DNA of 55,349 bases from Rubricoccus marinus (GTDB lineage Bacteria > Bacteroidota > Rhodothermia > Rhodothermales > Rubricoccaceae), in assembly GCF_002257665.1 (NCBI RefSeq), contig NZ_MQWB01000001.1, positions 2,709,771 to 2,765,119 on the forward strand, given 5' to 3'. Positions 11,184 through 40,170 of this stretch are shown piece by piece; the stretch's first letter is position 1; every line of letters starts with the position of its first letter. The notes under the pieces are model-generated. The model saw only the letters and a list, made by a program, of their open reading frames with translations. It had not been told where the DNA came from and did no database searches. The translations under genes were made by a program, and so were the position numbers.

Positions 11184-11201
11184 GCCTCTGGCGCCAGAGG
11201 C
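11184..11201. repeat. 18-base decamer palindrome abutting a stop codon
   Basis: GCCTCTGGCGCCAGAGGC. Its last base is the first plus-strand base of the TAG (read on the minus strand) that ends the hydrolase gene, so the palindrome begins inside the stop codon. It may form an RNA hairpin at the 3' end of that message, but no T-tract follows. Confidence 0.9.
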
Positions 11202-12568
11202 TAGTCCACCGGCTCGTAGTCGCCGACGTGGAAGGGGATGTTGGCGTGCGCGGCGTGGTTCTGGCCGTCGAAGACGTACACGAAGAGGCGGTAGGCGCCG
11301 GGCGTCTCGGGCGCAGTTACCGCTACCTCGGCGGCCTCTGGCGCGTCGATGGAGCCGGGGATGAGCTGCGGGACGGACTCGTCATCGCCGCCTTCGCTGA
11401 GGTCTTTTTGCTCCTCGCGGACCTCCCAGCGGTAGCGGAGGCCGTCGCCGTCGGGGTCGGACGAGGAGACGGCCGCGGGTACGGTCTGGCCGGGGTCGAG
11501 TTGGATGGCGTCGAGCGCGCCGCGGCCGTCGAGCGTGACGGCATCGAGGCGGGGAGCGCGGTTGGCGGGGACCTTCTCGGTCCACAGCTCCTCCATCGTG
11601 CCGATGGATTCGGTCTCTTCGCCAGAGGCCAAGAACATGCCGTACCACGTGTCCGTGCGCTCCTGCTTCTGGCCCCAGAGGAACACGTAGGAGCCCAGGA
11701 TCTGCTCGCGGTTGCTCAGGATGGCCGTGCGGTAGCGGGAGCCGTAGAGGTCGGCTTTGACCGACGAGTTGTTCTCGATCGGCGCGCCCCAGGGTGTTGT
11801 AGGTACTTCCCAGTGGCCCGTCGCGCCCCACTCGGTGATGACGAGCGGGCCGTCCCAGCCGGCGTCCGCGATGCGCTGCGGAAGGTTCTCGATGTCGGCG
11901 TACATCTGGATGCTGAGCAGGTCCAGGCTCGGCGCGCGCTCGCGGATGTCCTCCACCAACTCGGGGCCGATGCCCGCGAGCATCGTCGTGGTCGGGTGGT
12001 TGGGGTCCACCTCGTGGATCATCTCGCTGATGCCGTTGACGGCGTCCCAGACCGCCGGGTTGTCGGCGCCCAGGTTGAGCTCGTTGCCGATGCCCCACAT
12101 GAGGAGCGCCGGGTGGTCCTTGAGCTCCATCACCTCGGCGCGCACGCGCTCTAGTTGCGCCGCGACCGCTTCCTCATCGTCATAATCGAAGCCGAACACG
12201 CCTCGCCCCTGCCCCTCGCGCTCGCGGGCGATCTCCAGGCCCATCGTGACCATCAGGCCCGCGGCGTGAGCGCGGTCCAGCACCTCCTTGCCTGTGGCCT
12301 CGCCGTTGTCCGTCCGCCACGTGCGGAACGAGTTGGCGCCGTGCGCCGCGAGGGCCTCCACGTCGCCGAATTCCAGCCCGGCGCCCTTGATGTAGAACGG
12401 TTCGCCGTCCACGAACAGCCCGTAGCCGGTGCTGTCGCCGCGGACCTCCACCTTCGCGGGTCCCTCGGTGGCGGCCACGGCGGTCTCGCCAGAGGCCTCT
12501 GGCGCGGACGGGTTGCACGCAGCGAGAGCGAAGAGGCCCAGGAGGGCGCAGCAGGAGCGGAACAGCAT
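11201..12568 (-). CDS. Clan GH-A type glycoside hydrolase lipoprotein
   Basis: 455 residues. The signal peptide ends ALAACN with lipidated C18. It is followed by a short linker, APEASGE, created by the iterated decamer. The TIM-barrel domain (about 45-330) has GANSFRTWRTDNG, LLMWGIGNELN with acid/base candidate E163, and LVITEWGATGHWEV with nucleophile candidate E246. A C-terminal Ig-like domain (about 345-455) contains DPDGDGLRYRWEVRE. It is a paralogue of the truncated gene at the left edge. The enzyme probably acts on beta-glucan or its oligosaccharides in the outer membrane or periplasm. The GH family (GH2-like barrel, GH5 or a newer GH-A family) cannot be decided by eye. The gene lies 54 bases after the MFS porter on the same strand, in an apparent porter-hydrolase-phosphorylase operon. 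Confidence 0.8.
   Translation of the reverse strand: MLFRSCCALLGLFALAACNPSAPEASGETAVAATEGPAKVEVRGDSTGYGLFVDGEPFYIKGAGLEFGDVEALAAHGANSFRTWRTDNGEATGKEVLDRAHAAGLMVTMGLEIAREREGQGRGVFGFDYDDEEAVAAQLERVRAEVMELKDHPALLMWGIGNELNLGADNPAVWDAVNGISEMIHEVDPNHPTTTMLAGIGPELVEDIRERAPSLDLLSIQMYADIENLPQRIADAGWDGPLVITEWGATGHWEVPTTPWGAPIENNSSVKADLYGSRYRTAILSNREQILGSYVFLWGQKQERTDTWYGMFLASGEETESIGTMEELWTEKVPANRAPRLDAVTLDGRGALDAIQLDPGQTVPAAVSSSDPDGDGLRYRWEVREEQKDLSEGGDDESVPQLIPGSIDAPEAAEVAVTAPETPGAYRLFVYVFDGQNHAAHANIPFHVGDYEPVD
12487..12504. repeat. Tail-to-tail decamer palindrome inside coding sequence
   Basis: CGCCAGAGGCCTCTGGCG lies in the linker just after the lipobox of the hydrolase gene and encodes PEASG in that frame. 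It shows the motif sitting in an unconstrained protein segment. Confidence 0.9.
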
Positions 12569-12605
12569 GGGAGAGCGGGAATGCGTGGATGGCGCCAGAA
12601 GCCGG

Positions 12606-12623
12606 GCCTCTGGCGCCAGAGGC
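12606..12623. repeat. 18-base decamer palindrome abutting a stop codon
   Basis: GCCTCTGGCGCCAGAGGC at the 3' end of the MFS porter gene. The final C is part of that gene's stop codon (TAG on the minus strand). A degenerate partner lies just before it at about 12594. Confidence 0.9.
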
Positions 12624-14239
12624 TAGATGGCCGGTGAGACCTGCGGCGCCTCGGGCGCGCGGACCAGTTGGGCCTCCAGCTCTTCGAGCGACTTGCCCTT
12701 GGTCTCGGGGACGACGAACAGGACGAACACCAGGCCAAAGGCGGCGATCACGCCGAAGACGGCGAACGTCGTCGCAGCGCCGAGGGCGGCGAGTTCGACG
12801 GGGAAGATCTGCTGCACGGCAAAGCTCACCGCCGAGTTGATCAGCCCCACGAACGAGATGGCGATGCCGCGGATGCGGTTGGGGAACAGCTCGGAAAAGA
12901 GCACCCACATCACCGGCCCGAGCGAGACCGCGAAGGCGGCCACAAAGCCCAGGATGCCGATCAGGATCAGCGTCGGGTTGATGGTGATCGCCGAGGTGAT
13001 CAGCGGCGCCTCGTACTCCGTCGCCGCGGACTCGCCGAGGGCGCCCTGGAGCGCCGTCTTAAAGGCCACGTCGTTGCCGTACGTCTGCCCCACGAGAGGC
13101 GCCAGCGCGGCGGCCTGCTCACCGGTCATGCCCTCTGGGACGCCAGAGTCCGTCTCGGTTGTTGCTGCCTGGAGGTCGGGGAGCGTGTAGGTGGCCTGGC
13201 CGAAGCCGTACGCCAGGAGTCCCATCGCGAGCGTGATGCCAATCAGGCCGCCGATGAGCAGCGGCTTACGCCCGAGCTTGTCGATCAGCGCGATGGCAAT
13301 CAGCGTGAACACGAGGTTGATGACGCCCACGAAGATGGCCTGCACAAACGACGCGTCGGTCCCGATGCCGGACTGCTCGAAAATGGTCGGCGCGTAGAAG
13401 AACACGGCGTTGATGCCCGTCGCCTGCTGCACGATGCCGATCACGACGCCGATGGTGACCACGAGCCGGAGCGAGGGCATAAAGAGCTCCCGGAGGCTGC
13501 CCTTCTCCTTCTGCGCATCCGCGGCCATGCTCTTCTGGATCTCGTCCATCTCCTGCATCGCCGCCACGTTGCCGACGGCCATCTGCATGATGGGCAGCGC
13601 CTCGTCCTTGCGGCCCTTCATGAGCAGCCAGCGCGGGCTCTGCGGCACGAAGAACAGCCCGACGAAGTACAGGACCGCTGGGAGCGCCTCTAGGCCGAGC
13701 ATCCAGCGCCAGGGGCTCTCCACAAACCCCATCGACTGCGCCCACTCGGCGGGGGAGTCCGCGAGCTGGAGGATGAGGTAGTTGGTAAAGAACGCGACGG
13801 TGATGCCGAGAACGATGTTGAGCTGGTTGAACGACACCATCCGGCCGCGCGACTCCGGCGGCGCGATCTCCGCGATGTAGAGCGGCGCGATGATGAGCGA
13901 GGCGCCAACGCCGAAGCCGCCGATCATGCGCGCGATCACAAGCGTCACAAACGAGGGCGCAAACGCCGACGCAATGGCCGAGATGGCGTACAGCGTCGCG
14001 GCCACGAACAGCACGTTCCGGCGCCCAAAGCGGTCGCTGAGCGGCCCCGATACCATCATCGCGAGCGTCGCCGTGAGCGTCAGCGAGGCGACGGAGAAGC
14101 CGAGCTGGCCCTTCGTGAGCGCGAACTCGGTCTCGATAAACCCGACGACGCCCGAGATGACGGAGGCGTCGAAGCCCATGAGGAAGCCGCCGAGCGCTAC
14201 GATGAGCGCGGTTCGGACGACGTAGAAGCGATTCGGCAT
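12623..14239 (-). CDS. MFS sugar porter (SP family)
   Basis: 538 residues, twelve-helix sugar porter. Family signatures: GGFLMGFDASVISG in helix 1, LSDRFGRRN after helix 2, PLYIAEIAPPESRGRMVSFNQ between helices 4 and 5, PQSPRWLL after helix 6, GIVQQATGINAVFFYAPTIFEQSG in helix 7, and the C-terminal VPETKGKSLEELE. An insertion of about 80 residues between helices 9 and 10 (LPDLQAATTETDSG onward) is longer than usual. It likely imports glucose or short beta-glucosides released by the neighbouring hydrolases, by symport. It starts the minus-strand run porter, hydrolase, phosphorylase and is divergent from GH3 across an operator-bearing gap. Confidence 0.92.
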   Translation of the reverse strand: MPNRFYVVRTALIVALGGFLMGFDASVISGVVGFIETEFALTKGQLGFSVASLTLTATLAMMVSGPLSDRFGRRNVLFVAATLYAISAIASAFAPSFVTLVIARMIGGFGVGASLIIAPLYIAEIAPPESRGRMVSFNQLNIVLGITVAFFTNYLILQLADSPAEWAQSMGFVESPWRWMLGLEALPAVLYFVGLFFVPQSPRWLLMKGRKDEALPIMQMAVGNVAAMQEMDEIQKSMAADAQKEKGSLRELFMPSLRLVVTIGVVIGIVQQATGINAVFFYAPTIFEQSGIGTDASFVQAIFVGVINLVFTLIAIALIDKLGRKPLLIGGLIGITLAMGLLAYGFGQATYTLPDLQAATTETDSGVPEGMTGEQAAALAPLVGQTYGNDVAFKTALQGALGESAATEYEAPLITSAITINPTLILIGILGFVAAFAVSLGPVMWVLFSELFPNRIRGIAISFVGLINSAVSFAVQQIFPVELAALGAATTFAVFGVIAAFGLVFVLFVVPETKGKSLEELEAQLVRAPEAPQVSPAI

Positions 14240-14333
14240 AGACCCTCAGGAAGATGTGGGAGAGCGCCTGGGTCCCCTCCTCTGCCCCCCCGGACCGCGC
14301 CGGGGGCCTCTGGCGGAGGCGTAGATTGCGGAC

Positions 14334-14349
14334 CTGAAAACGTTTTCAG
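14334..14349. promoter_or_regulatory. LacI-family-type operator palindrome between porter and GH3
   Basis: CTGAAAACGTTTTCAG is a perfect 16-base palindrome with a central CG, the architecture of LacI/GalR-family operators. It lies 95 bases upstream of the porter start and 101 bases upstream of the GH3 start, so one site could control both divergent units in response to a glucan-derived sugar. The cognate repressor is not in this window. Confidence 0.75.
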
Positions 14350-14386
14350 ACGTTCAGCATGATAGAACCCTGAAGGCTACGGGCGC

Positions 14387-14394
14387 AAGCGCTT
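14387..14394. promoter_or_regulatory. Possible second, weaker operator half
   Basis: AAGCGCTT, an 8-base palindrome with central GC, lies 55 bases before the GH3 start. The related GAAGCGCTTC occurs at 17303-17312 upstream of the second GH16 gene. The same octamer also occurs inside genes (near 9529 and 10275), so support is weak. Confidence 0.25.
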
Positions 14395-14449
14395 CCAGCC
14401 GCCTCTGGCGCCCATAGACCGGCCTTCAGCCCACCTGCCACGCCCCCCG

Positions 14450-16945
14450 ATGCGTCTCTGTTTCCTGGCCTTCGCGCTTGTCCTCACCAGTTGCGGTGGC
14501 GCCCGCGTGCCCGCGCCAGAGGCGCCCCGCCCGGCCTCTGGCGAACCGGCGCCCGACACGCCGGCGCAGATCCAGACGCCGAGCGCAGCCGGGAACACGG
14601 CGCCCGGCCTCGCCTCTGGCGACTCGACGCGCGTCGCGCCCGACGCCTCGCGCCTGTCGCTGGCGCCGCGTGGCCCGGTCCAGACCGATCTGGCCGACTC
14701 CCAGGTCTACCTCCGCGAGGCGAGCGTCCACCCGGCGCCAGAGGCCGATCCCCGCGTCGACGCGCTGCTGGGGCAGATGACGCTGGAGGAGAAGGTGGGC
14801 CAGATGACGCAGATCACCCTAGAGGTCATCGCGGACAAGCGCCAGAGGCCGTACATGGTGGACCGCGCCAAGCTGCGCCGCGCTGTGGAGGATTTCCACG
14901 TCGGCAGCGTGCTCAACGTGGTGGACGAGGCCTACACCGTAGACGAGTGGCGCGAGATCACGGGCGTCGTCGACAGCCTCTCGCGCGCCTCGCGGCTGGG
15001 CGTGCCGGTCCTCTACGGCATCGACGCCGTGCACGGCGCCAACTACACGCGCGGCGCGGCGCTCGTGCCGCAGAACATCGGGCTCGCGGCCACCTTTAAC
15101 CCGGCGCTCGTGCAAGAGGCCGCGGCGGTCACGGCGCGCGACATCCGCGCGGGCGGTCTGCCGTGGGACTTCGCGCCCGTTCTCGACATCGGTCGCCACG
15201 TCGCGTGGTCGCGCTTCTACGAGACGTTCGGCGAGGACGTGCACCTCGCGAGCGTGATGGGTGTGGCCCAGGTGCGTGGGCTCGAAGGCGACGACCTCGC
15301 CTCTGGCGTCCGCGCCGCGGCCACAGGCAAGCACTTCCTGGGCTACAGCGGCCCGCGAACAGGCCGCGACCGCAGCAGCGCATTTATCACCGAGCGCGAG
15401 TTGCGCGAGTACTACGTCCCGCCGTTCCAGGCCGCCATCGACGCGGGCGTGGCGACGATCATGATCAACTCGGGCGACATCAACGGCGTCCCCGTCCACG
15501 CCAGCCATGACCTCCTCACGGGCCTCTTGCGCGACGAGATGGGCTTCGAGGGCGTAGCGGTCACGGACTGGGAGGACATCAAAAAGCTCGCGACCCTGCA
15601 CCGCGTCGCGGAGAATGAGCGCGAGGCGACCAAGATGGCCGTGCTCGCGGGCGTGGACCTCAGCATGGTGCCCAACGACTTCTCGTTCCACACCACGCTC
15701 GTGAGCCTCGTGCGCGACGGCGAGGTGCCTCTGGCGCGCATCGACCAGGCCGTGCGGCGCATCCTCACGCTTAAGAGCCGCCTCGGCCTGCTGGACGCGC
15801 CCGCCGCCACCGGGTCGACGCCAGAGGCCGTGACCGCGCCCGCCTCGCGCGCGCTCGCGCTCCAAGCCGCTCGCGAGTCCATCACCCTCCTCCGTAACCG
15901 ACCGGACGCCTCTGGCGCCCCGCTCCTGCCGCTCTCGCCAGAGGCCAACGTCTTCGTGACTGGCCCAGCCGCCACGTCCATGCGCGCGCTCAACAACGGC
16001 TGGACCTATACGTGGCAGGGCGACGGCCGCGCCGACCTCTACATGCCCGAAGGCCGGACCGTCCTAGACGGCATCCGCGCCATCGCGCCAGAGGCCACCT
16101 ACGAGCCGGGCGCAGGATTCGACGGGAGCCTGGACCTGGAGGCTGCGGCCTCTGGTGCCCGCGCCGCCGATGTGGCGGTCGTCGTGCTAGGCGAGGAATC
16201 GTACGCCGAGGTGCCGGGCAGCGTGACCGACATGTGGCTGCCCGACGCCCAACTCGCGCTGCTGGACGCCGTCGCCGCGACGGGCACGCCGGTCGTGCTG
16301 GTTCTGGTAGAGGGCCGTCCGCGCATTCTGGGCGAGCACGAAGCGGGCGCCGACGCGCTCGTGATGGCCTACAACCCGAGCCACGAGGGCGGCCAGGCCA
16401 TTGCCGAGGTGCTGTTCGGCCGCGTCAACCCGAGCGGGCGCCTGCCGTTCACCTACCCCTCCGGCCCCAACATGCTCGTCGCGTACGACCGCACGCTCTC
16501 GGACGACGTGGACACGAGCTACGGCTTTACCGGCTTCCAGCCTCTGGCGCGCTTCGGCGACGGCTTTGGCTACACGACGTTTGCGACCTCGGGCCTCACC
16601 GTCGCGCCAGAGGCCGAGATAGGCGAGCCTCTGGCGGTAACGGTCACCGTCCAAAACACCGGGGCCGTGGCCGGACACGAAGTCGTGCTGCTCTACGTCT
16701 CCGACACGGTGGCGAGCGTCGCGCCCGCGACTGAGCGACTCGCGCGTTTCGCGAAGGTCTACCTGGAGCCCGGCGAGAGCCGCACGCTCACGTTCTCGCT
16801 CGATCCCGCCGCGCTCTCGTTCGTGGACGCCAGAGGCCGCCGATTGGTGGAGCCGGGCGCGTTCTCGGTCCGCGTCGCGGATCAGACGGCCGAATTCGTG
16901 CTCACCGGCGACGCGCCGCTCGTCCTCTCCACGCCCGCGCGATAG
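14450..16945 (+). CDS. GH3 family beta-glucosidase lipoprotein
   Basis: 831 residues. The signal ends VLTSCGG with lipidated C15. It is followed by a low-complexity linker of roughly 85 residues, rich in PEA/ASG from the iterated decamer. The GH3 N-domain holds LYGIDAVHG, GKHFLGYSGP and the nucleophile motif VAVTDWEDI (D373). The second domain has ESITLLRN and LGEESYAEVPGS. A C-terminal Fn3-like domain starts near VTVTVQNTGAVAGHEVVLLYV. It would release glucose from beta-gluco-oligosaccharides in the periplasm or at the outer membrane. It is divergent from the sugar porter across the palindromic operator. I counted 16 decamers (one degenerate) from 14501 to the stop. A 7-base hairpin, GCGATAG/CTATCGC, overlaps the stop codon but lacks a T-tract. 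Confidence 0.94.
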   Translation: MRLCFLAFALVLTSCGGARVPAPEAPRPASGEPAPDTPAQIQTPSAAGNTAPGLASGDSTRVAPDASRLSLAPRGPVQTDLADSQVYLREASVHPAPEADPRVDALLGQMTLEEKVGQMTQITLEVIADKRQRPYMVDRAKLRRAVEDFHVGSVLNVVDEAYTVDEWREITGVVDSLSRASRLGVPVLYGIDAVHGANYTRGAALVPQNIGLAATFNPALVQEAAAVTARDIRAGGLPWDFAPVLDIGRHVAWSRFYETFGEDVHLASVMGVAQVRGLEGDDLASGVRAAATGKHFLGYSGPRTGRDRSSAFITERELREYYVPPFQAAIDAGVATIMINSGDINGVPVHASHDLLTGLLRDEMGFEGVAVTDWEDIKKLATLHRVAENEREATKMAVLAGVDLSMVPNDFSFHTTLVSLVRDGEVPLARIDQAVRRILTLKSRLGLLDAPAATGSTPEAVTAPASRALALQAARESITLLRNRPDASGAPLLPLSPEANVFVTGPAATSMRALNNGWTYTWQGDGRADLYMPEGRTVLDGIRAIAPEATYEPGAGFDGSLDLEAAASGARAADVAVVVLGEESYAEVPGSVTDMWLPDAQLALLDAVAATGTPVVLVLVEGRPRILGEHEAGADALVMAYNPSHEGGQAIAEVLFGRVNPSGRLPFTYPSGPNMLVAYDRTLSDDVDTSYGFTGFQPLARFGDGFGYTTFATSGLTVAPEAEIGEPLAVTVTVQNTGAVAGHEVVLLYVSDTVASVAPATERLARFAKVYLEPGESRTLTFSLDPAALSFVDARGRRLVEPGAFSVRVADQTAEFVLTGDAPLVLSTPAR

Positions 16946-17052
16946 CGCCTCACCTATCGCCTGGAACAGACGCTCCGTTCACTTCCGCTACGCTCCATCC
17001 TGGGCCTCTGGCGGCGAGATCCTTTGCGCCAATCCGGACGGCCGCGGTAAGG

Positions 17053-17565: not shown

Positions 17566-19149
17566 ATGCGTCTGCCTCTTCTCGCCCTTCTTCTCACCCT
17601 GGCCGCTGGCGCCAGCAGCCAGGACACGCCCGAGGGCTGGGTCCTTCTCTGGGAAGAGAACTTCGACGCCCGCGATGCCGCCTTCGACGCGCGCTGGGAC
17701 ATCGGCACGCACACGTTCGACGGCAACGAGGCGCAGTTCGTGGAGGACAACGTGGTCGTGGAAGATGGGCTCCTCACGCTTCGGCTCACGCCAGAGGCCG
17801 CGGGCTCGCGCCTGTACTCCGGCGCCGAACTCCGTACGGACAACCAAACGGGCTTCTTCACCTACGGCCGCTTCGAGGCGCGCATGAAGGCCGCCAGAGG
17901 CTCAGGCGTCATCTCGTCGCTCTTCACCTTCCGCTACGACCCGTGGCAGGAGATCGACATCGAGTTCAAGGGCCGCGACACGCGCGCGATGCAGGCCAAC
18001 ATCTTCTACAACCGCCCCGGCGACAACGCGCCATACGAGGTCCCGCCGTTCCCCCGCGACTCGCCTCTGGCGTACGACGCCGCCGACGAGTTCCACGTCT
18101 ATGCCTTCGAGTGGGAGCCAGGGATCATTCGCTGGTTCGTGGACGGCGAGCAGGTGCTGGAGAGCCAGGACCCGGCGCAGGTGCCGTACCTGCCGCAGCA
18201 GATCATGATGAACATCTGGAACACGAACCTGAGTTGGGCCGGCCCGCTGGACCCCGGCGCGCTGCCCACCGAGGCGCAGTACGACTGGGTGCGCGTCTAC
18301 AGGCGCGAGAACGCCGGGCTCGTCTTCGACACGTTCGACGACGGCGACGTGAGCAACGTGTTCACCTTTAGCGAGACCGAGGGCGGCATCGGCGTCGGCC
18401 CGTATGCCGACGCGAACGGCGTGCCCGACCGCGCGCTCAACGTCGGCATCGACCCGGCGGGCACGGGCGGCTATGCGGGCGTGGTCCTGGCCGGCGCGCC
18501 CGGGACCGTGGACGCCTCTGGCGCGAGTGCGCTCACGTTTAAGCTGCGCCCCGGCGTGCAGGCCTCCAATCTCCCGCTCACGCTGGAGATCAACCTCCAC
18601 GAGGACACCAACGGCAACGGCACGTACGAGGGCGCGTTGGAGGACGAATACCAGGCAACCTACCAGGTCACAGGCGGCTCCGGCTTTACTGACGTGTCCA
18701 TCCCGCTCTCGGCCTTTACCGACGACAACAGCGTGTTCCAGGGCACGAACGACGGCTTCGACTACTCGCGCCTGCTGGAGGTCGTCGTCGCCATCGTCGG
18801 CCCGACTGGCCCCGGCTACTCGCTCTCGTTCGACGAGATCACCTTCGCGCCCGGGAGCGCCACCGCCGGCGAAGCCCAGCCCCTCGCGCCAGAGGCCGAG
18901 GTCCGCGTCTACCCCAACCCCACCTCTGGCGCGGCGACGGTCGCCTTCCGCCTCGCGCAGGCATCCGAAGTCACGGTCGACGTGGTGGACCTGCTCGGCC
19001 GGCGCGTGGCAACCGTCGCCAGAGGCGCCCGCGTTGCGGGCGCCGTCCGCCTGGACATGCCCACAGGCTCGCTCGCGCCCGGCGTGTACCTCGTGCGGGT
19101 GCAGACCGAGACGGGCGTCTCCGCCACGCGCTTCTCGGTCGTCCGGTAG
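17566..19149 (+). CDS. GH16 beta-glucanase with carbohydrate-binding-like domain and T9SS sorting domain
   Basis: 527 residues. The start MRLPLLALLL at 17566 gives a clean signal peptide ending at about residue 18. The GH16 domain spans about 20-245 with catalytic QEIDIEF (E129, D131, E133), the ExDxE form typical of lichenase-type members; the other GH16 here has ExDxxE. Residues about 250-430 (FDTFDDGDVSNVF to SFDEITF) resemble a CBM11-like beta-sandwich. The last 80 residues (VRVYPNPTSGAATVAF, LLGRRVA, LAPGVYLVRV) form a type IX secretion C-terminal domain, so the enzyme is probably exported to the cell surface or medium. It is probably active on mixed-linkage or beta-1,3-glucan. The stop TAG is directly followed by GCCTCTGGCG, and an intrinsic terminator follows. 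Confidence 0.93.
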   Translation: MRLPLLALLLTLAAGASSQDTPEGWVLLWEENFDARDAAFDARWDIGTHTFDGNEAQFVEDNVVVEDGLLTLRLTPEAAGSRLYSGAELRTDNQTGFFTYGRFEARMKAARGSGVISSLFTFRYDPWQEIDIEFKGRDTRAMQANIFYNRPGDNAPYEVPPFPRDSPLAYDAADEFHVYAFEWEPGIIRWFVDGEQVLESQDPAQVPYLPQQIMMNIWNTNLSWAGPLDPGALPTEAQYDWVRVYRRENAGLVFDTFDDGDVSNVFTFSETEGGIGVGPYADANGVPDRALNVGIDPAGTGGYAGVVLAGAPGTVDASGASALTFKLRPGVQASNLPLTLEINLHEDTNGNGTYEGALEDEYQATYQVTGGSGFTDVSIPLSAFTDDNSVFQGTNDGFDYSRLLEVVVAIVGPTGPGYSLSFDEITFAPGSATAGEAQPLAPEAEVRVYPNPTSGAATVAFRLAQASEVTVDVVDLLGRRVATVARGARVAGAVRLDMPTGSLAPGVYLVRVQTETGVSATRFSVVR

Positions 19150-19178
19150 GCCTCTGGCGCCTGCGGGAATGTTCGCAC

Positions 19179-25565: not shown

Positions 25566-25583
25566 GCCTCTGGCGCCAGAGGC
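25566..25583. repeat. 18-base decamer palindrome abutting the prmA stop
   Basis: GCCTCTGGCGCCAGAGGC. Its last C belongs to the TAG that ends prmA on the minus strand. It lies between prmA and ppx. Confidence 0.9.
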
Positions 25584-26446
25584 TAGCCCTTCACGACGCG
25601 GCCCGCCCACCACTCGTTCTCGGTCTTCTCCGCGCTGAGGGCCAGGCCATGCGCCTCGCAAGCGGCCACGACCTCGTCGCGCTCCGTGCGGAGAATGCCC
25701 GCGAGGATCATCGCGCCGCCAGAGGCCATCCGCGTCACGAGATCAGGCAGCATGGGCAGGATGGTGCTTTTGAGGATGTTGGCGAAGATGAGCCCGTACG
25801 GGCCATCGGGCGCGGCGCCGAGGTCGCCCTCGCGGACGGTGAACCGCGCGCTCATGCTGTTGCGCTCGGCGTTCTCCTCGGCGTTGGGCACGCTCCACGG
25901 GTCGATGTCCACGCCCCAGGCCTCGCCCGCCCCCATCGCGAGGGCCGCGAGCGCGAGCACGCCCGTCCCGGTCCCCACGTCGAGAACGCGAGCGCCAGAG
26001 GCTGCGTCGGCGCCGCCAGAGGCCTCTGGCGGGTGCTCCGAGAGCAGGCGCAGGCACAGCCGCGTGCTCTCGTGGTAGCCCGTCCCGAAGCTCATCTTTG
26101 GGTCGATGCGCAGAACGTAGCGGTTGGTCGGCGCGATGTCCGCCCACGTCGGCGCGACGACGAACGCGCCGGCCTCGATGGGCTGGAGGCTGGCTTCCCA
26201 CGTCGCGTTCCAGTCCTGGCCCGGCATCACCTCTACGGTCATGGCCTCTGGCGAGGCGCCGTGCGCGGCGAGCGCGCGGGCGACGGTCTCGCGGACGGAT
26301 TCGCTCCAGCGCGGCGCCGGCATCCACGCGCGGAGCGCATCGGCGTCGGACTCGAAGGCGTCGAAGTCGAGGTCGGACAGTTCCGCGATGATCAGGTCGT
26401 GGGCGTCGTCGGGGAGGCGCAGCGTGAGCGCGATCGTATCGGTCAT
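25583..26446 (-). CDS. prmA: PrmA, ribosomal protein L11 methyltransferase
   Basis: 287 residues. PrmA pattern: an N-terminal substrate-binding region with QDWNATWEASLQPIEAGAFVVAPTW, then LRIDPKMSFGTGYHESTRLCLRLL, SAM-binding VLDVGTGTGVLALAALAMGA, GVDIDPWSVPNAEENAERN, and the catalytic-region IFANILKSTILPML. An acceptor-type insertion, PPEASGGADAASGA, interrupts the SAM domain and is encoded by iterated decamers. It trimethylates L11. Start MTDTIALTLRLP. Confidence 0.95.
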   Translation of the reverse strand: MTDTIALTLRLPDDAHDLIIAELSDLDFDAFESDADALRAWMPAPRWSESVRETVARALAAHGASPEAMTVEVMPGQDWNATWEASLQPIEAGAFVVAPTWADIAPTNRYVLRIDPKMSFGTGYHESTRLCLRLLSEHPPEASGGADAASGARVLDVGTGTGVLALAALAMGAGEAWGVDIDPWSVPNAEENAERNSMSARFTVREGDLGAAPDGPYGLIFANILKSTILPMLPDLVTRMASGGAMILAGILRTERDEVVAACEAHGLALSAEKTENEWWAGRVVKG

Positions 26447-26481: not shown

Positions 26482-26499
26482 GCCTCTGGCGCCAGAGGC
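26482..26499. repeat. 18-base decamer palindrome abutting a stop codon
   Basis: GCCTCTGGCGCCAGAGGC between the YdjM-like gene and prmA. The final C is the last base of the YdjM-like stop codon read on the minus strand. Confidence 0.9.
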
Positions 26500-27047
26500 T
26501 ACGCCGCCCGAACCCGTCGCCACGTCCAGACCGCCGCCACGAACGCCAGCGCAGGCAGGCCGATCCACACCGCCTCGCTCGCCACGACCGCCACGCCTCT
26601 GGCGGAGAAGAACGCGCCCGCGCCGATGGGCGAGACCGCGATGGGGCGAAACGGAAAGAAGAACCGCTCCGCCGAGAACGGGATCCAAAAGCCGACGCCG
26701 AGGCCGCCCGTCGTCATCGCGTCCAGAACGGCGTGCGAGAGTGTGGCGAGCGCCGCGTAAACGCCCAGCGCTCGCGCCGAAACCGCCGCTGGCGCCAGAG
26801 GCCTGCGCGCGCGCCAGAGGCGGACGGCGGCCCACACACACGCGCCCACCAAAAGGGCGAACGCGACGGAGTGCGTCGCGCCACGATGCCCTAGCGGGTG
26901 CTCGTACGGGATGCCGAGCGCGAACGCCACCACGTCGGCATCCGGAAGCGCGGAGCAAAACGCGCCCAGCGCGAACACGCGCCAGGACGGCTTCACCGCC
27001 GTTCCGAGCGCTCCCGCCGCGACCGCGTGGCCAAAAACCGACGCCAT
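26499..27047 (-). CDS. YdjM/DUF457-like membrane-bound metal-dependent hydrolase
   Basis: 182 residues with about four hydrophobic segments. Family motifs are FGHAVAAGALG, ALPDADVVAF, LGHRGATHSVAF and SHAVLDAMTTGG, whose His and Asp residues are the presumed metal ligands. The start ATG overlaps the stop of the upstream gene by one base (TAATG), so translation is coupled. The substrate is unknown. Confidence 0.85.
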   Translation of the reverse strand: MASVFGHAVAAGALGTAVKPSWRVFALGAFCSALPDADVVAFALGIPYEHPLGHRGATHSVAFALLVGACVWAAVRLWRARRPLAPAAVSARALGVYAALATLSHAVLDAMTTGGLGVGFWIPFSAERFFFPFRPIAVSPIGAGAFFSARGVAVVASEAVWIGLPALAFVAAVWTWRRVRAA

Positions 27048-31773: not shown

Positions 31774-31777
31774 CCCG

Positions 31778-32223: not shown

Positions 32224-32249
32224 CCGGGCCTCTGGCGCCAGAGGCCCGG
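32224..32249. terminator. Palindromic hairpin between convergent genes
   Basis: A perfect 26-base palindrome, GCCTCTGGCGCCAGAGGC extended by CCGG on both sides, lies 33 bases after the RsbW-like stop and 17 bases from the end of the S15 peptidase gene. It has no T-tract, so a bidirectional terminator role is inferred from position and the similar element at 22513. Confidence 0.5.
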
Positions 32250-32265
32250 TGCGTCCGCCAGAGGC

Positions 32266-34107
32266 TTAGTTCTGCCCCATAGCCGCCTGGAGCGCAGCGG
32301 CGCCACCCACCACGGGCAGTTCGAGCGCGAGCGCGTCGAGGTCCACCATCAACTCCGTGCCCGGCTGCGGCCAGAGCGTGAACTCCCGGTCGCTGGAGAA
32401 GACGAGGAGGCCGAGTTGCTGACCTGCGGCGAGGATCTGGTCGTCGGGCTGGAGGTAGAACTGCATGTCCACGTACTCGCCCGGCGTGAGAGGCATGCTC
32501 GATGTGAGCGTGCCTTCCACCGACGAGACGTAGTTCTGCGGATCGGCCCAGCCGCGTGTCACGATGCCGCCTCTGGCGCCCCGCCCTTCGGTCCACGGCA
32601 GCGACACGAGCCAGACCGAGAGGTTCACGGCCGGCTTGTTGGACGCCACGCGAAGCCGGATGGTGGAGGTGCCGGAGAGGTGCAGCGGCGCCGCCAGTTC
32701 AGGTGTGACGAACAAGAGCCGGTGCTGCGTCCACTCCGCTGCGGAAAGCGCCTGCCCCCCGAAGGAGACGTTGTCCACGACCGTCGCCATTCCCTGTCCG
32801 CCAGAGGCCTCTGGCGCCAAAGCGCCGACGCCGTTCATGTCGTTCACGACCTGCCCCGCGCGGGGGTACAGCATCACGGGCGACGCGTCGGGGTTCGGGT
32901 ACGCGGCGTAGGGCGTCGGGTTGTCGCGCTCGTCGCCCTCGCGGACGATCCATGCCTTGGGGTCGTTCTCGACGCCGTTCTCGACGTCGTAGAGGTAGCG
33001 CGTGAACCAGCGGTTCATCTGCGCCAGAGGCGGCGGCCCGCCGTGGCCGCCCTGGTGGAAGTACTCCTGCACGGGCACGCCGCGCGCTTTGAGCGCTTCG
33101 CTGATGCGGGTGCTGTGCTCCGGCATCACGTTCCAGTCGTTAAAGGCGTGGGCCATGAGCGTGGCGGCCTGCACGTTCTCGACGACGTTGAGGTAGTCGC
33201 GGCCGGCCCAGAACTCGTTGTAGTCGCCCGTGAGGCGGTCGAGGTTGGGACCCATCTCGCCGTCTCGGACCGAGGCGTCGCAGGTGGCGCGGAGATCGGA
33301 GTCGCGGCTGTGGATAAAGTCATACAGCACGTCGATGTCCTCGCCGAGGTAGCCGCCGGGGCTGCGCACGAGCCCGTTGGAGCGGTAGTAGTGGTAGTAC
33401 GACGTGTTGGGCGCGATGGGAATGATGGCCTCCAGCCCCTCCACCCCGGTCGTCGCCGCCGCCAGAGGCAGCGTGCCGTTGTAGGATGTGCCGGTCATGC
33501 CCACCTTGCCGGTGCTCCAGTCCGCCGTGACTTCCTCGCCGCCTCGCGCTGCGGTGAAGCCTCTGGCGCGGCCGTTCAGCCAGTCCACCACGGCTTTGGG
33601 CGCGAGCGATTCGTTGATGCCGCCGACGGTCGGGCAGCCCTCGGAGAGACCCGTTCCGGGCGAGGAGGAGTGGACAACGGCGAACCCGCGCGGCACCCAC
33701 GTGCTCACGTGGCTGGAGGAAATGCCGGGCCGGAGGCGAAGCGGCACATCCGGCCCCATGGTGCGCGCCGGGGGCGTCTCGCCGATCTCGTGCTGCACGT
33801 TCCAGAACAGGCCCGGGGAGTCGCCGGCGGTCCCCGCGAAATAGGGGCTCGTCTCGTAGATGACGGGCACCTTAAGCCCCTCGGTCTCGGTCTGCTGAGG
33901 GCGCACGACGGCCGTGTGCACGCGGTCCATCATCCCATCGCCGTCGGAGTCGAACTCGGTCTCGACCCAGAGCTCTTCCTGGATCCACGCCTCGGCGTCC
34001 TCGAACGCGGGGACGACCTGCGCCTGCCCATCCTCGAACCGAGGGCCCGCCTGGCCGCTGGCGGGAAGGGCGATGAGAAAGGCCAGGGGAAGGAGAAGCA
34101 AACGCAT
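32266..34107 (-). CDS. S15-family Xaa-Pro dipeptidyl-peptidase/CocE-like hydrolase
   Basis: 613 residues. The signal peptide ends PASGQ; the start at 34107 (MRLLLLPLAFLIALP) was chosen for it. Family features are a substrate-site region TSPYFAG, then WVPRGFAVVHSSSPGTGLSEGCPTVGG and the nucleophile elbow VGMTGTSYNGTL (S208). The Asp region is AHAFNDWNV and the His region FHQGGHGGPP. A C-terminal jelly-roll (about 450-613) has LRVASNKPAVNLSVWLV. It probably cleaves dipeptides or esters in the periplasm. The stop TAA is followed directly by GCCTCTGGCG on the minus strand. Confidence 0.9.
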   Translation of the reverse strand: MRLLLLPLAFLIALPASGQAGPRFEDGQAQVVPAFEDAEAWIQEELWVETEFDSDGDGMMDRVHTAVVRPQQTETEGLKVPVIYETSPYFAGTAGDSPGLFWNVQHEIGETPPARTMGPDVPLRLRPGISSSHVSTWVPRGFAVVHSSSPGTGLSEGCPTVGGINESLAPKAVVDWLNGRARGFTAARGGEEVTADWSTGKVGMTGTSYNGTLPLAAATTGVEGLEAIIPIAPNTSYYHYYRSNGLVRSPGGYLGEDIDVLYDFIHSRDSDLRATCDASVRDGEMGPNLDRLTGDYNEFWAGRDYLNVVENVQAATLMAHAFNDWNVMPEHSTRISEALKARGVPVQEYFHQGGHGGPPPLAQMNRWFTRYLYDVENGVENDPKAWIVREGDERDNPTPYAAYPNPDASPVMLYPRAGQVVNDMNGVGALAPEASGGQGMATVVDNVSFGGQALSAAEWTQHRLLFVTPELAAPLHLSGTSTIRLRVASNKPAVNLSVWLVSLPWTEGRGARGGIVTRGWADPQNYVSSVEGTLTSSMPLTPGEYVDMQFYLQPDDQILAAGQQLGLLVFSSDREFTLWPQPGTELMVDLDALALELPVVGGAAALQAAMGQN

Positions 34108-34323: not shown

Positions 34324-34980
34324 ATGCTGTACCGTGCCCTGTTCGTCTCGCTGTTTGCCCTCATCGCCCTCGCAGGCTGCGATACGCAATCGCCTCCTGA
34401 AGAGAAGGCGCCGCTGATCCCGCTAGAGGTAGGCAACGAGTGGGTGTTCGACATGGAGAGGACGTATTCGTACCACGGGACCACGTTCCCTGGACGCACG
34501 GCAGACACGTTGCGAATCGTGTCGGAGATCGAGGAAGACGGTGTTCGCTGGGTCGAAATGCGGTCCAACTACCACGCGCTAGACCAAAACATGGGTGGCT
34601 TCTATGCAGACATCGACGGCGATATCTGGCACTCGTCCGATCCGAGGAATAATGATCCCTATCTGCTATTCTCGAGAGACGAGAGCTCCTATGCTGTGAA
34701 CAGGCTGTCCTACGATGCCTCTGTCACCGTCCAGAACTCTGGTGACCTCTACGAATACGCATTTAGCCTGCGCCGCCTTCGTATTCCGTCGACGGGGGAG
34801 GCCGCTCGAGATTTTGCTTTCACGCCTGGGAGCCCCGAGTACATCCGCACCCTCGTGGCAGGTGGGGGCTTCCAGCGGTATGACCAAGCCTACGCCTTTT
34901 ACACAGAAGGGCAAGACTCGATGCGCGTCGTTCTAATCGAGACGTTTACCCAGACGGACTTTCTGCCCGCCTCGAACTAG
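34324..34980 (+). CDS. Hypothetical lipoprotein, atypical base composition
   Basis: 218 residues with a lipobox LIALAGC (C19). No family recognised. The mature part starts PLIPLEVGNEWVFDMERTY, a pattern common in beta-rich envelope lipoproteins. The DNA is visibly less GC-rich than its neighbours (AATAATGATCCCTATCTGC near 34650), uses codons rare elsewhere here, and contains no iterated decamer. Both point to recent acquisition. It is divergent from the S15 gene. Confidence 0.78.
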   Translation: MLYRALFVSLFALIALAGCDTQSPPEEKAPLIPLEVGNEWVFDMERTYSYHGTTFPGRTADTLRIVSEIEEDGVRWVEMRSNYHALDQNMGGFYADIDGDIWHSSDPRNNDPYLLFSRDESSYAVNRLSYDASVTVQNSGDLYEYAFSLRRLRIPSTGEAARDFAFTPGSPEYIRTLVAGGGFQRYDQAYAFYTEGQDSMRVVLIETFTQTDFLPASN

Positions 34981-35066
34981 ACAGCAGGGGCCTCTGGCGC
35001 CGTACGACCGCGCGCCCATCGGGAAGCGCCGACGCCACGGGCCTCCTCGTCTCTAGCGCCAGAGGC

Positions 35067-36605
35067 TCAGGGCCTCTGGCGGAGCCAGCCCCGCGCCATC
35101 GCCAGCCCGTTGCGGATCTCACGCACCTCGTACAGCCCCAGCGCGAATAGCGCCGCTGGGTAGCACGCCAGAAGCCCTGCCCGGAGCGCCACGCGCGGCC
35201 ACAGGCCCCATGCCTCAGACGGCATCGCTGCGAGCGCTAAGACGGCGGCGATCACGCCAGAGGCGAGCGCCGCGCCCCACGGGTAGCGGATCGGCGCGTG
35301 TCGGCGTGCGACGCGCTCGGCGTAGAGCGCCAGTCCCGCGAACGACGCGACCGTAGCGAGGGCCGCGCCCATCGCGCCGAACGGCGGGATCAGCAGTAGG
35401 TTGAGGACCGCGTTCCCGACCGCGGCGCCGATGACGCCCTGCGAGATCCGCCGCGTCTCCCCCGCCGCGTACAGCACGTTCACGACGACGAAGTACAGCC
35501 CGTAGCCCACGTAGCCCAGGGCGACGGGCAACACGAGGCCGCTGGCGCCGAGGTAAGCCGGCTCGGACGAGAGGATGCGCGTGCCGTCGAACGTGACGAG
35601 CGAGAGGCCGAGCGCGGCGAAGCCGCCCAGCGCCGCGAAGTGCCGGAAGACGCGCGGGTGCAGCGTGCTATCGGTCAGCTTGCCATCGGCACCGTAGAGC
35701 GTCTTCAGGCCGATTGCGAGGAACGCCAGTTGCAGACTCTGCACGAGCAGCACGTTCAAGATCCCCCCGATCCGCGCCGCCCAGCCGTAGACGGCCAGCG
35801 CCTCGTCGCCCGCGATCCAGCCCAGCAGGTAGCGGTCGCCCGCGTTCAGCATCAGCCCACCGAGCCCACCCAGCGCCAGCGGCACGCCGTACACCGCCAG
35901 AGGCCGGATGAGCCGCGTGCGGATCCGCCACCCGCCTCTGGCGAGCACGACGGCCACGAGGATGGCCGCTGAAGCGCCCGCCGACATCGCGTAAGCCCGC
36001 ATCACGCCCTCTAGCCCGAGCCCCTCGGTCCCCAAGAAGTACCACACCGCCGCCACCAGAACCGCCATCTCGACCGCCACGCCCAGCGCGAATACGCCTG
36101 CCCGCTCCTTCGCGCGCAGCACGGCATACGGCACCCCGCCGATGACCTTCATCGCGACGTATAGCCCGAGCCACCAGATGATCGCCGGGTTCGCCTGGGG
36201 CGCCATCAAGACCGGCGCGAGGACGGGAGCAAGCAGCCCGAACCCCAGCGCGACCAGCGCGGCGACGGCGCCAGAGGCCACGAGTGCCGTCCCGGGCAGC
36301 GCCGCGTGGTCGTCGGCGTGCTTGGGGTCGGCGAGAAAGCGCAAGAGGCCGCTGGCGAGGCCCAGCCCGCCCAGCAGCACGCCGATCTGCGCGGTCACTT
36401 CCAGTTGGAAGAGCTGGCCGTACTCCGCTTTGGAGAGCAGCGCCGTATCGAGGTAGAGCGGCGCGAGCAGCAGCCCGCCGAGCTTGAGCGCCACGCCCGA
36501 AAGCGCGTACAGCCCCGACTGGCGAATCAGCCGCCACCCGCCACCAGAGGCGGTCTGGGCCTCTGGCGCGGCGTCGGCGGAGTCGGGGGCGGGAGCGTCG
36601 GGCAC
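35067..36605 (-). CDS. Polysaccharide/lipid flippase (MOP superfamily, Wzx-like)
   Basis: 512 residues from a GTG (VPDAPAPDSADAAPEA). Upstream frame is open but has no membrane pattern. About twelve to fourteen hydrophobic segments. RLIRQSGLYALSGVALKLGGLLLAPLYLDTALLSKAEYGQLF is typical of the oligosaccharide flippase N-terminus. Other features are YGVPLALGGLGGLMLNAGDRYLLGWI and TRRISQGVIGAAVGNAVLNLLLIPPFGAMGAALAT. It would export lipid-linked glycans. No other polysaccharide gene is next to it except the divergent HprK-like gene. The stop TGA is followed by GCCTCTGGCG. Confidence 0.9.
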   Translation of the reverse strand: MPDAPAPDSADAAPEAQTASGGGWRLIRQSGLYALSGVALKLGGLLLAPLYLDTALLSKAEYGQLFQLEVTAQIGVLLGGLGLASGLLRFLADPKHADDHAALPGTALVASGAVAALVALGFGLLAPVLAPVLMAPQANPAIIWWLGLYVAMKVIGGVPYAVLRAKERAGVFALGVAVEMAVLVAAVWYFLGTEGLGLEGVMRAYAMSAGASAAILVAVVLARGGWRIRTRLIRPLAVYGVPLALGGLGGLMLNAGDRYLLGWIAGDEALAVYGWAARIGGILNVLLVQSLQLAFLAIGLKTLYGADGKLTDSTLHPRVFRHFAALGGFAALGLSLVTFDGTRILSSEPAYLGASGLVLPVALGYVGYGLYFVVVNVLYAAGETRRISQGVIGAAVGNAVLNLLLIPPFGAMGAALATVASFAGLALYAERVARRHAPIRYPWGAALASGVIAAVLALAAMPSEAWGLWPRVALRAGLLACYPAALFALGLYEVREIRNGLAMARGWLRQRP

Positions 36606-36639
36606 GGCCGCGAAGGTACCGGTTGGTGGGAGGGACAGA

Positions 36640-36657
36640 GCCTCTGGCGCCAGAGGC
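36640..36657. repeat. 18-base decamer palindrome in a divergent promoter region
   Basis: GCCTCTGGCGCCAGAGGC lies between the flippase start (36605) and the HprK-like start (36718). Unlike the stop-codon copies it cannot be a terminator for either gene. Confidence 0.9.
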
Positions 36658-36717
36658 CCGCGCCGTCTGCACCCTGCATTCGCCCTCGCCCGCGCCGCGA
36701 GCCCGCTAGCTTGCCGC

Positions 36718-37821
36718 ATGGACCCACTCCGCCTCCACATCTTCGGCCGCACCGTCGCCGTCCACGCCGGCAGCGGCGTGGCGGGCCGCGTGCTCCGCGA
36801 CGAGCTCGCGCACTACCCCGCCGCGGCTCCCGATAGCTCGCCCGACCTCACGCTCAGCTTTGACGCCCCGCACCCGCGGCGCGTGATCGCCGCCAACCCG
36901 TCGGCGCAGGTGGAGAACGAGGGCGGCTTCACGGCGCGCTTCACGATGGCCGAAGTCGACTACTCGTGGGGCGCCGGGCGGCTCCGCGCGCTCGGCGTGC
37001 GCGTCAACCGGCCCGCCAGCGGCCTCTGGCGCCAGGCGCAGCGCGCGGCCGACATGCAGTTTGCGACCCGCGAGGCGCGCGCGGGCATGATCGCGCACGA
37101 GCTGGCGCTCGTCCCCGCGATGCTCCTGGATCCCGAGCGGCTGCCCATCCACGCCAGCGGCCTGCAATCACCCGATGGCGGCGTGTTGCTCCTCGGCGGG
37201 ACCGGTGGCGTGGGCAAGACCTCGCTCTGCCTCGAACTCGGCCGCAGCGCGGGCTACCGTTTCCTCGCCGATGACATCGCGGTTCTCGACGCCAGAGGCC
37301 GCGTCTTCCCCAACCTCGCGTACCCGAAGGTCTACGGGTACAACATGGTCGGCCACGACGACCTGCGCGACTCCGTGCTCAAAGGCCGCGGCGCGCTGGA
37401 CCGTCTGCACTGGCACCTCCACAAAGCGCGAGGCCTGGACAAAGTGCGCCGCCGCGCCGCGCCCGAAACCCTCTACGGCCCCGTCTCCGAGGGCGGGCCT
37501 CTGGCGCGCTACGTGATCCTCATGCGCGAGGCGCGCGACGAGATCGCCGTGGACTCTGTCGGCGCCGACGAAGCCGCTGAGCTATCGGTCCGCGTGCTCC
37601 AGACTGAGTTCGCGCAGTTCCTGACACACCTTCAGTGGCACGCCTACAACCGTGGCCTCCTCGGCCTGGAGCCCTTCGCGACGCCAGAGGCCACGATCAG
37701 CCGCTGGCGCGATGGGCTCGCACAGGCGCTGGGCACGGCGGAGTGCGTCGTCGCACGAATCCCTATCGGCATGGAGCACGGAGCCTTCCGGCGCGAGATG
37801 AGCGCGGTGCTAACGGCGTAG
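36718..37821 (+). CDS. HPr-kinase-like P-loop protein
   Basis: 367 residues. ERLPIHASGLQSPDGGVLLLGGTGGVGKTSLCLELG contains a Walker A (GGTGGVGKTS) of the HprK/serine-kinase type, preceded by the characteristic HASG. FLADDIAVLD is the matching Walker B-type region. The N-terminal 150 residues are a separate alpha/beta region. Such HprK-like proteins often sit near surface-polysaccharide or peptide-modification genes. Here the neighbour is a divergent flippase. TAGCTTG at 36707, five bases from the ATG, may be a -10 element giving a nearly leaderless message. The stop TAG is followed by GCCTCTGGCG. Confidence 0.78.
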   Translation: MDPLRLHIFGRTVAVHAGSGVAGRVLRDELAHYPAAAPDSSPDLTLSFDAPHPRRVIAANPSAQVENEGGFTARFTMAEVDYSWGAGRLRALGVRVNRPASGLWRQAQRAADMQFATREARAGMIAHELALVPAMLLDPERLPIHASGLQSPDGGVLLLGGTGGVGKTSLCLELGRSAGYRFLADDIAVLDARGRVFPNLAYPKVYGYNMVGHDDLRDSVLKGRGALDRLHWHLHKARGLDKVRRRAAPETLYGPVSEGGPLARYVILMREARDEIAVDSVGADEAAELSVRVLQTEFAQFLTHLQWHAYNRGLLGLEPFATPEATISRWRDGLAQALGTAECVVARIPIGMEHGAFRREMSAVLTA

Positions 37822-37968
37822 GCCTCTGGCGCCAGAAGCCGCCAGACCACCCGTAGGGACACACCGCTGGTGTGTCCTCCGTCCTGAATGCCGCGACATC
37901 AGCCGCAGCCCCCCCCGTAGTCGCACGAGACCTACGCTCCGAGACACGGCGGCCTGATGCGCCAGAGG

Positions 37969-40170
37969 CTATTCCGGCGGCTCCTCCCCCGCTACAATCG
38001 CGAGAACGGCCTCCCCGTACTGCTCCAGCTTTGCCGGGCCGATGCCCTTGACGGCCAGCAGGTCGTCGTTGGACTCCGGCATCGCAAGGGCCACGGCACG
38101 GAGCGTCTTGTCGTTGAACACGACGTAGGGCGGCACGCCTTTTTCGATGGCGAGGTCGGAGCGCCAGGCGCGGAGCAACTGGAAGACCTCGCCGGCGTCG
38201 TCGTCCAACTCGATGTCGTCCGAGCCGCCTCTGGCGCCAGAGGCCGATCCGCCAGAGCCTCTGGCGCCGCGAGTCAGCTTGTCCGCCAGCCCATCGCGAC
38301 CCACGTCGATGGCCTCGCGATGCGCGAGCGCCTGGCGGCCCAACGGCGCCACGTCCAGAACCTGGAACTGGTTACCGCCCGAGCCCTCCACGCTGACCGT
38401 CTTGAGGTAGCCCTTGAGGAGTAGCCCCTTGTAGAGCGCGTCCACGTCGTCCAGGCTCATCATGCCCAGGCGGCCGTAGTACGGGTGCCCCTCGTACTTG
38501 TCCATGCCCTTGGCTTTGGAGCCGGCGAGGATCTTGGTCATCGTCTTGCGCCCGACGGGCCACTTGAGTCGCGTCACGGCATCCAGCAGGCCCAGCGCGA
38601 TGCGCGAGTGCATGGGGATCTGGTCCCACTCCGGGATCTCGTCCGGTGCGTCCTGCATCCGCGATTCCACGGCGCACACGTCGCAGCACTCGGCGCCTTC
38701 CACGGACGGTTCTGCCTTGTCGCCGAAGTGCGTCAGCAGCACGCGACGGCGGCACCGGTCGGCCTCGGCGTAGCTGACCACCACGCGGAGCTGGTCGGTT
38801 TTGTGCTGCTTGTGCCGGTCACTACCGCCCAACTCGTCTTGCACGCGGGAGCGGTCCCACGCCTGCACGCGCCAGACGCGCGTCGCGCCCTCGTCGTCCA
38901 GCCGTTGCGCCAGGCCGCTCCGCTCCAGAATGCTCAGCGCGACGCGCGCGAGGACGGGGTGCACGCCAGAGGCATCGGCGATTTGGTCGGGCTCGGCGCG
39001 CGCGATGCCGTTCTCATCCGCGCGGCGGGCGAGCGCGCGGTAGGTCGTGTTCACGTCGGTCTGCTCCGGCGCCTGCTGCTCGATAAACCACTCGCGGAGG
39101 CCTCGGTCCTGCGGCGCGTAGAACAAGACGGCGCGAGACGGCTTCCCATCGCGCCCTGCGCGCCCCGCCTCCTGGTAATACGCCTCCAACGTGGACGGAA
39201 TCGACCAGTGCGCCACAAAGCGTACATCGCCTCGGTCCACGCCCATGCCGAAGGCGTTTGTCGCCACGACGAGATCCAGTTCGCCGCCGATAAACCGGTC
39301 CTGCACGAACGCCCGCTCGCGGTCGGGCAACCCGGCGTGGTATGCCTCGCAGGCCAAGCCCATCTCGGCGCGGATGTACTGCGAGAGCTCCTCGGTGTCC
39401 TTGCGCGTGGAGGCGTAGACCAGCCCTGCGCCTCTGGCGCCAGAGGCCTCGGCGTCGCTCGCGTACTCGTCCAGCACGTCGAGCAGCGCGCGCCGCTTCT
39501 GCGCGCGGCCGGATGTGGAAACGACCTCGAAGAGCAGGTTCGGGCGGTCGAAGCCCGTCACCACCACCTCCGGGTCGCGGAGTTCGAGGTTGGCGCAAAT
39601 GTCGCGCTGCACGTCGCGCGTGGCCGTGGCTGTCAGCGCCACGCACGGCGGGTTGCCCATCTGGTCCCGCGCGGGGCCGATGTTGCGGTAGTCCGGGCGG
39701 AAGTCGTGGCCCCACTGACTCACACAGTGCGCCTCGTCCACGGCCAACCGGGCCACCTTGCACGCGTCTAGCGCGCGCAAAAAGCCCCGCTGCCGCAGCC
39801 GCTCCGGAGCCACGTAGATCATGTCCAGCCCGCCTCTGGCGAGGAGGTCCAAGACCGCCTTCTGCTCCTCCATCGTCATCGCGGAGTGGACCGCCGCCGC
39901 GGCGATGCCCTTGGCCTGGAGGCCGTCCACCTGGTCCTTCATCAGCGCGATAAGCGGCGAGACGACGACCGTCGTGCCACGCCCCGCCAGCCGGTCCATG
40001 ACCGCGGCGAGCTGGTAGATAAGGCTTTTGCCCGCTCCCGTCGGCATCACGACCAGGGAGTCCCGGCGCTCCAGGACTGGCGCGAGCGCGCGCTCCTGCC
40101 CCGGCCGCAGGCCCACGTGGCCAAAGGTCCGCAGGAGCACGTCGGGAAGATGGGGAGCCGTCTCGTTCAT
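37969..40170 (-). CDS. recQ: RecQ ATP-dependent DNA helicase
   Basis: 733 residues. Helicase motifs are RPGQERALAPVL, VMPTGAGKSLIYQLA (I), VVSPLIALMKDQV (Ia), LAVDEAHCVSQWGHDFRPDY (II and aromatic loop), ALTATAT (III), VVATNAFGMGVDRGDVRFVAHW (V) and YYQEAGRAGRDG (VI). The zinc region has CRRRVLLTHFGD and GAECCDVC. A winged-helix domain follows, and an HRDC domain ends the protein (about 650-733, KTLRAVALAMPESNDDLLAVKGIGPAKLEQYG). An Arg/Ser/Gly-rich spacer (TRGARGSGGSASGARGGS) before HRDC is encoded by clustered decamers, including a full palindrome at 38227-38244. Another palindrome lies at 39430-39447. Confidence 0.96.
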   Translation of the reverse strand: MNETAPHLPDVLLRTFGHVGLRPGQERALAPVLERRDSLVVMPTGAGKSLIYQLAAVMDRLAGRGTTVVVSPLIALMKDQVDGLQAKGIAAAAVHSAMTMEEQKAVLDLLARGGLDMIYVAPERLRQRGFLRALDACKVARLAVDEAHCVSQWGHDFRPDYRNIGPARDQMGNPPCVALTATATRDVQRDICANLELRDPEVVVTGFDRPNLLFEVVSTSGRAQKRRALLDVLDEYASDAEASGARGAGLVYASTRKDTEELSQYIRAEMGLACEAYHAGLPDRERAFVQDRFIGGELDLVVATNAFGMGVDRGDVRFVAHWSIPSTLEAYYQEAGRAGRDGKPSRAVLFYAPQDRGLREWFIEQQAPEQTDVNTTYRALARRADENGIARAEPDQIADASGVHPVLARVALSILERSGLAQRLDDEGATRVWRVQAWDRSRVQDELGGSDRHKQHKTDQLRVVVSYAEADRCRRRVLLTHFGDKAEPSVEGAECCDVCAVESRMQDAPDEIPEWDQIPMHSRIALGLLDAVTRLKWPVGRKTMTKILAGSKAKGMDKYEGHPYYGRLGMMSLDDVDALYKGLLLKGYLKTVSVEGSGGNQFQVLDVAPLGRQALAHREAIDVGRDGLADKLTRGARGSGGSASGARGGSDDIELDDDAGEVFQLLRAWRSDLAIEKGVPPYVVFNDKTLRAVALAMPESNDDLLAVKGIGPAKLEQYGEAVLAIVAGEEPPE

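Follow-up and report, generated by a model that had tools for sequence, protein, structure and literature searches.

The window analyzed here, a stretch of 55,349 nucleotides from the genome of Rubricoccus marinus, carries GH2-like and GH16 genes, a sugar transporter gene, an arsenic module, and prmA-, ydjM-, and recQ-like genes, within and between which the ten-base word GCCTCTGGCG (the decamer) occurs 182 times (0.58 ± 0.81 expected from shuffles). Inverted copies of this word overlap in two arrangements, the 18-base palindrome GCCTCTGGCGCCAGAGGC and the reverse arrangement CGCCAGAGGCCTCTGGCG. The features concerned are the following:

1148 to 1156, plus strand: 9-mer CCTCTGGCG, one base short of the decamer, adjoining the TAA of gene 2-1147
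1198 to 1215, plus strand: the other overlapping arrangement, CGCCAGAGGCCTCTGGCG, in the spacer of tandem genes
1697 to 1706, plus strand: intragenic decamer, inside the GH16 gene 1235-2098
2206 to 7110, minus strand: arsenic module (arsR, aquaporin, arsM/arsD, arsA) and a phosphoesterase gene, motif-poor
11184 to 11201, minus strand: overlapping inverted pair GCCTCTGGCGCCAGAGGC, one base in common with the TAG of the GH2-like gene 11201-12568
12606 to 12623, minus strand: palindrome GCCTCTGGCGCCAGAGGC, one base in common with the TAG of the sugar transporter gene 12623-14239
19150 to 19159, plus strand: lone decamer, adjoining the TAG of the GH16 gene 17566-19149
25566 to 25583, minus strand: palindrome GCCTCTGGCGCCAGAGGC, one base in common with the TAG of the prmA-like gene 25583-26446
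26482 to 26499, minus strand: palindrome GCCTCTGGCGCCAGAGGC, one base in common with the TAG of the ydjM-like gene 26499-27047
32228 to 32265, minus strand: palindrome (32228-32245) and decamer (32256-32265), the latter adjoining the TAA of gene 32266-34107
35057 to 35081, minus strand: divergent pair, whose copy at 35057-35066 adjoins the TGA of gene 35067-36605
37822 to 37839, plus strand: decamer and inverted partner with one mismatch, adjoining the TAG of gene 36718-37821
37960 to 37969, minus strand: decamer, one base in common with the TAG of the recQ-like gene 37969-40170

The initial annotation had noticed four palindromes merging with the TAG stops of minus-strand genes and six single copies directly after other stops. 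All four palindromes (11184-11201, 12606-12623, 25566-25583, and 26482-26499) were confirmed, each sharing its terminal base with the stop codon. Five of the single copies also stood: the decamer begins on the base adjoining the stop at 19149 (TAG), 32266 (TAA), 35067 (TGA), and 37821 (TAG), and overlaps the G of TAG at 37969. The sixth, at 1147, proved to be only the truncated 9-mer CCTCTGGCG. The impression that this arrangement is too regular to be accidental was borne out in 335 kb of R. marinus DNA (the window plus blocks L032-L045), in which genes were called with a simple hexamer model that renders stops firm and starts approximate. A decamer abuts about 11% of the 289 stops: at 23 of them the two overlap by one base, and at another 10 the decamer comes immediately after, against roughly 2 at each of the other offsets. 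These stop-abutting decamers are a small minority of all copies. In each of the five Rubricoccaceae genomes sampled, TAG ranks first or second among the stop codons, despite a GC content of about 70%.

The entire genome of R. marinus SG-29T (4,430,441 bases in 15 contigs) contains 14,176 copies of the decamer, about 3.2 per kb (the reversed control word is found 61 times), and 873 exact copies of the palindrome. The boundaries of the word are sharp. In the 335-kb sample, 1,084 exact decamers contrast with 546 one-mismatch forms, all 30 kinds pooled, whereas a control word yielded 5 exact and 129 one-mismatch occurrences. The 8- and 9-base parts of the decamer are rare apart from the full word; for instance, the 9-mer GCCTCTGGC is found outside it only 22 times. 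GCCTCTGGCG is thus a discrete ten-base word, not palindromic in itself, and no clear extension into its flanks was discerned in R. marinus.

Decamers are 4.4-fold denser between genes (10.9 per kb) than in coding sequence (2.46 per kb), and still 749 of the 1,084 sampled copies are intragenic. Comparison of 53 ortholog pairs revealed ungapped alignment to the relatives at 115 of 140 intragenic sites, and most of these copies therefore arose by substitution. Amino acid identity was 0.50 at decamer sites and 0.65 in the permutations, all 1,000 of which gave higher values, and gaps amounted to 13.6% against 3.7%. The decamer is therefore located where proteins tolerate change, having settled at poorly conserved positions mostly through point substitution. 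Of the codons sampled, 67% of AGA and 39% of TCT lie within decamers. Neighboring intragenic copies run mostly in opposite directions, an excess that fades with distance (92% at 20 to 40 bp, 64% at 80 to 160 bp, 57% at 160 to 320 bp, and 50% beyond 640 bp); same-direction pairs may be removed by slippage between direct repeats.

About a fifth of the decamers sit in overlapping pairs, 76 of them in the 335 kb arranged as GCCTCTGGCGCCAGAGGC and 36 as CGCCAGAGGCCTCTGGCG; 30 of these 112 pairs are intragenic. Per kilobase of spacer, the overlapping pairs of R. marinus number 4.2 between convergent, 3.2 between tandem, and 1.1 between divergent genes. The 60 nucleotides past a stop fold with a mean energy of -29.7 kcal/mol when they contain both arms and of -18.1 kcal/mol when they lack any copy. 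No T-run follows the palindromes (at no position does T rise appreciably above 30%), which rules out a classical intrinsic terminator. The initial annotation had read these structures as 3′-end hairpins serving termination or RNA stability. For paired copies, such a role is likely, given their 3′ bias, their strong folds, and their counterparts in relatives. As the reason for the motif, that reading fails, because most copies are intragenic, only about one in five belongs to an overlapping pair, and the T-run is absent; 3′-end hairpins explain a minority of copies only.

Motif statistics were also computed for four relatives, sampled at 140 to 254 kb each, and for a far smaller sample of G001. 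In the eight other Rubricoccaceae genomes, GCCTCTGGCG itself hardly exceeds background, if at all. G004, of the same genus, and G008, of another genus, instead share GCTGGCGG as their commonest 8-mer, with about four copies per kb between genes and fewer inside them. Certain bases flanking GCTGGCGG, e.g., C(-6) and C(18), are kept in several reading frames, and its inverted pairs form post-stop hairpins. In G005 and G006, CGAGGCGG is weakly iterated, barely over the coding background, and no iterated variant was seen in the small G001 sample. Relative to GCCTCTGGCG, GCTGGCGG represents dialect-like variation, to which CGAGGCGG perhaps also belongs. Contig G001:C130 (L068), 3.3 kb long, is 81% identical to R. 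marinus throughout and shares four of the five aligned R. marinus sites, so that a sibling carrying the same word probably exists. The recurrence of decamer sites in this separate assembly also makes an assembly artifact unlikely. The contig was binned with another genus, as either a misbinned sibling or a transfer.

Beyond the family, no comparable word of similar strength was detected in samples of 20 to 60 kb from other families of the order. The palindrome gave one single match among 393 other genomes of the phylum and one chance 20-mer match in a genome collection from which the record of the window itself was possibly left out. A phage source was dismissed, as the palindrome is in none of 2.9 million viral contigs, a set that likewise possibly omits the window's own records. 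Other short words are iterated elsewhere. GCCGGC is over-represented about ninefold (139 versus 15) in G016 (L150-L152), a genome of 51% GC from a different family of Rhodothermales, and could be a HIP-like word, and CCCCCCCC occurs 134 times in 47 kb of G022 (L157-L159), far over expectation.

Some stretches of R. marinus are poor in the motif. The arsenic module contains 3 decamers in 4.9 kb, against about 12 expected (P about 0.002), and was likely acquired. In the poorest sampled block, no decamer occurs over 3.6 kb (L044:5172-8787; GC 0.60), close to a capsule synthesis gene. Motif density did not correlate with compositional atypicality, as measured by tetranucleotide distance (rho -0.12, p 0.31), and depletion of the decamer in foreign DNA is no more than suggestive.

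R. marinus encodes ComEC, ComEA, DprA, and PilT- and PilQ-like proteins; the PilT-like and secretin genes lie 5 kb apart (C1:694-700 kb), and the PilT and PilQ matches score under the curated cut-offs. ComEC and DprA are widespread, with ComEC in 53 of 60 genomes of the order. Because competence genes are also found in genomes devoid of an iterated word, and G004 iterates a motif with no PilT match, their presence in R. marinus is permissive and not proof of uptake. We found no report of transformation in this lineage among the open-access papers examined. A further R. marinus locus that is not in most relatives (C11:11398-21258) encodes an extra secretin, a secretion ATPase, and two N-methyl pilin-like proteins, and resembles a type II secretion system or a second pilus locus.

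Several explanations for so abundant a word were weighed. The main rival to uptake, which we regard as unlikely, is a HIP1-like word kept by DNA methylation, a mismatch-repair bias, or a recombination or repair protein, with no link to uptake. It gains from the cyanobacterial precedent, in which HIP1 is comparably over-represented, sometimes gives way to a different word, and is associated with methyltransferases (PMC4390886). However, HIPs are short palindromes, whereas GCCTCTGGCG is non-palindromic and its 8- and 9-base parts are rare on their own; uptake sequences also account better for the gradient of pairs toward 3′ ends and for the related words of other Rubricoccaceae. It is improbable that the motif exists for 3′-end hairpins, in termination or RNA protection, with intragenic copies as spill-over. 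The preference of pairs for convergent over divergent spacers, their contact with stops, and their strong folding speak for this notion, but the bulk of the copies are intragenic and mostly unpaired, and any complementary arms would make a hairpin, with no need for a single fixed word repeated 14,000 times.

A Chi-like, segregation, or nucleoid-protein site would be brought to mind by GCTGGCGG of the relatives, which is one base off the Escherichia coli Chi sequence GCTGGTGG. Chi and segregation motifs are strand biased with replication, however, whereas GCCTCTGGCG is divided 7,049/7,127 between the strands of the whole genome and is near balance in the sampled blocks (335 kb). Given the lack of strand bias, Chi or segregation sites were rejected, and the wider class is quite improbable. 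Finally, identical palindromes past stops, in hundreds of exact copies, might recall a selfish REP/MITE-like element inserting near stop codons. This origin is hardly credible and was discarded: the identity stops at the decamer edge, with no longer repeated unit, and most intragenic copies stand in place of aligned sequence and are not insertions into an empty site. Copying by local template switching was also rejected, since the flanks of inverted partners are not complementary.

We favor, with somewhat better than even confidence, the interpretation of GCCTCTGGCG as a DNA-uptake-sequence-like tag of R. marinus, belonging to a putative and so far undescribed system in Rubricoccaceae (Rhodothermales). 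Most features examined agree with the uptake sequences of Neisseriaceae and Pasteurellaceae, whose copies likewise serve in 3′-end hairpins: the density of the word, its neutrality to strand, its non-palindromic form, its placement at tolerant sites, its variants in relatives, and its inverted pairs at 3′ ends. In this view, the type IV pilus/ComEA/ComEC machinery would include a surface receptor with a preference for DNA bearing the decamer, so that tagged fragments of dead kin would be taken up and recombined. Uptake and recombination would then spread the copies born by point mutation and keep the old ones, and the word would accumulate throughout the genome at sites where neither proteins nor spacers are harmed by it. 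Receptor preference may drift between lineages with the genome following, which would yield dialects such as GCTGGCGG and perhaps CGAGGCGG. Pairs just past stops may have been reused as 3′-end hairpins because inverted copies are common.

The open-access literature examined describes uptake sequences in Pasteurellaceae and Neisseriaceae only. We consider it marginally more probable than its opposite that DNA-uptake specificity evolved independently for a third time in Rubricoccaceae, with dialects that change fast and a word density above that of the known uptake sequences in this literature. If so, this further origin, lying in a distant phylum and with several dialects in one family, would make possible a comparative test of whether uptake specificity is adaptive, as a means to choose kin, or a by-product driven by receptor bias. 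Such a system would also open a practical route to Rubricoccaceae genetics, i.e., placing the proper decamer on donor DNA.

The closest likeness is to the DNA uptake sequences (DUS) of Neisseriaceae, which also diversify into dialects and reach up to about 2.5% of the genome (PMC3630211). Both are ten-base non-palindromic words present in thousands of copies, on both strands and in genic and intergenic DNA, with inverted pairs at 3′ ends, a tail-to-tail preference, and dialects in relatives. Kingella oralis holds nearly 6000 DUS copies in 2.4 Mb, about 2.5 per kb (PMC3630211), compared with 3.2 decamers per kb in R. marinus. The uptake-sequence hairpins counted by Kingsford et al. in Neisseria meningitidis (94 tail-to-tail, 10 head-to-head, and 3 intragenic; PMC1852404) follow the same convergent-over-divergent gradient as the R. 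marinus pairs, which are, in contrast, often intragenic. R. marinus further differs in its phylum, in the sequence of its word, and in hairpins that lack U-tracts; its uptake and receptor are putative. The uptake signal sequences (USS) of Pasteurellaceae resemble the Rubricoccaceae words in copy number and hairpin use, and their conserved flanks are matched by those of GCTGGCGG in G004 and G008; USS flanks are A/T tracts, however, whereas those of GCTGGCGG are C/G positions and the R. marinus word has no clear extension. Cyanobacterial HIP1 (GCGATCGC) is likewise a very dense iterated short word (PMC4390886), but it is a palindrome tied to methyltransferases, whereas the R. marinus word is non-palindromic and its pairs mark 3′ ends.
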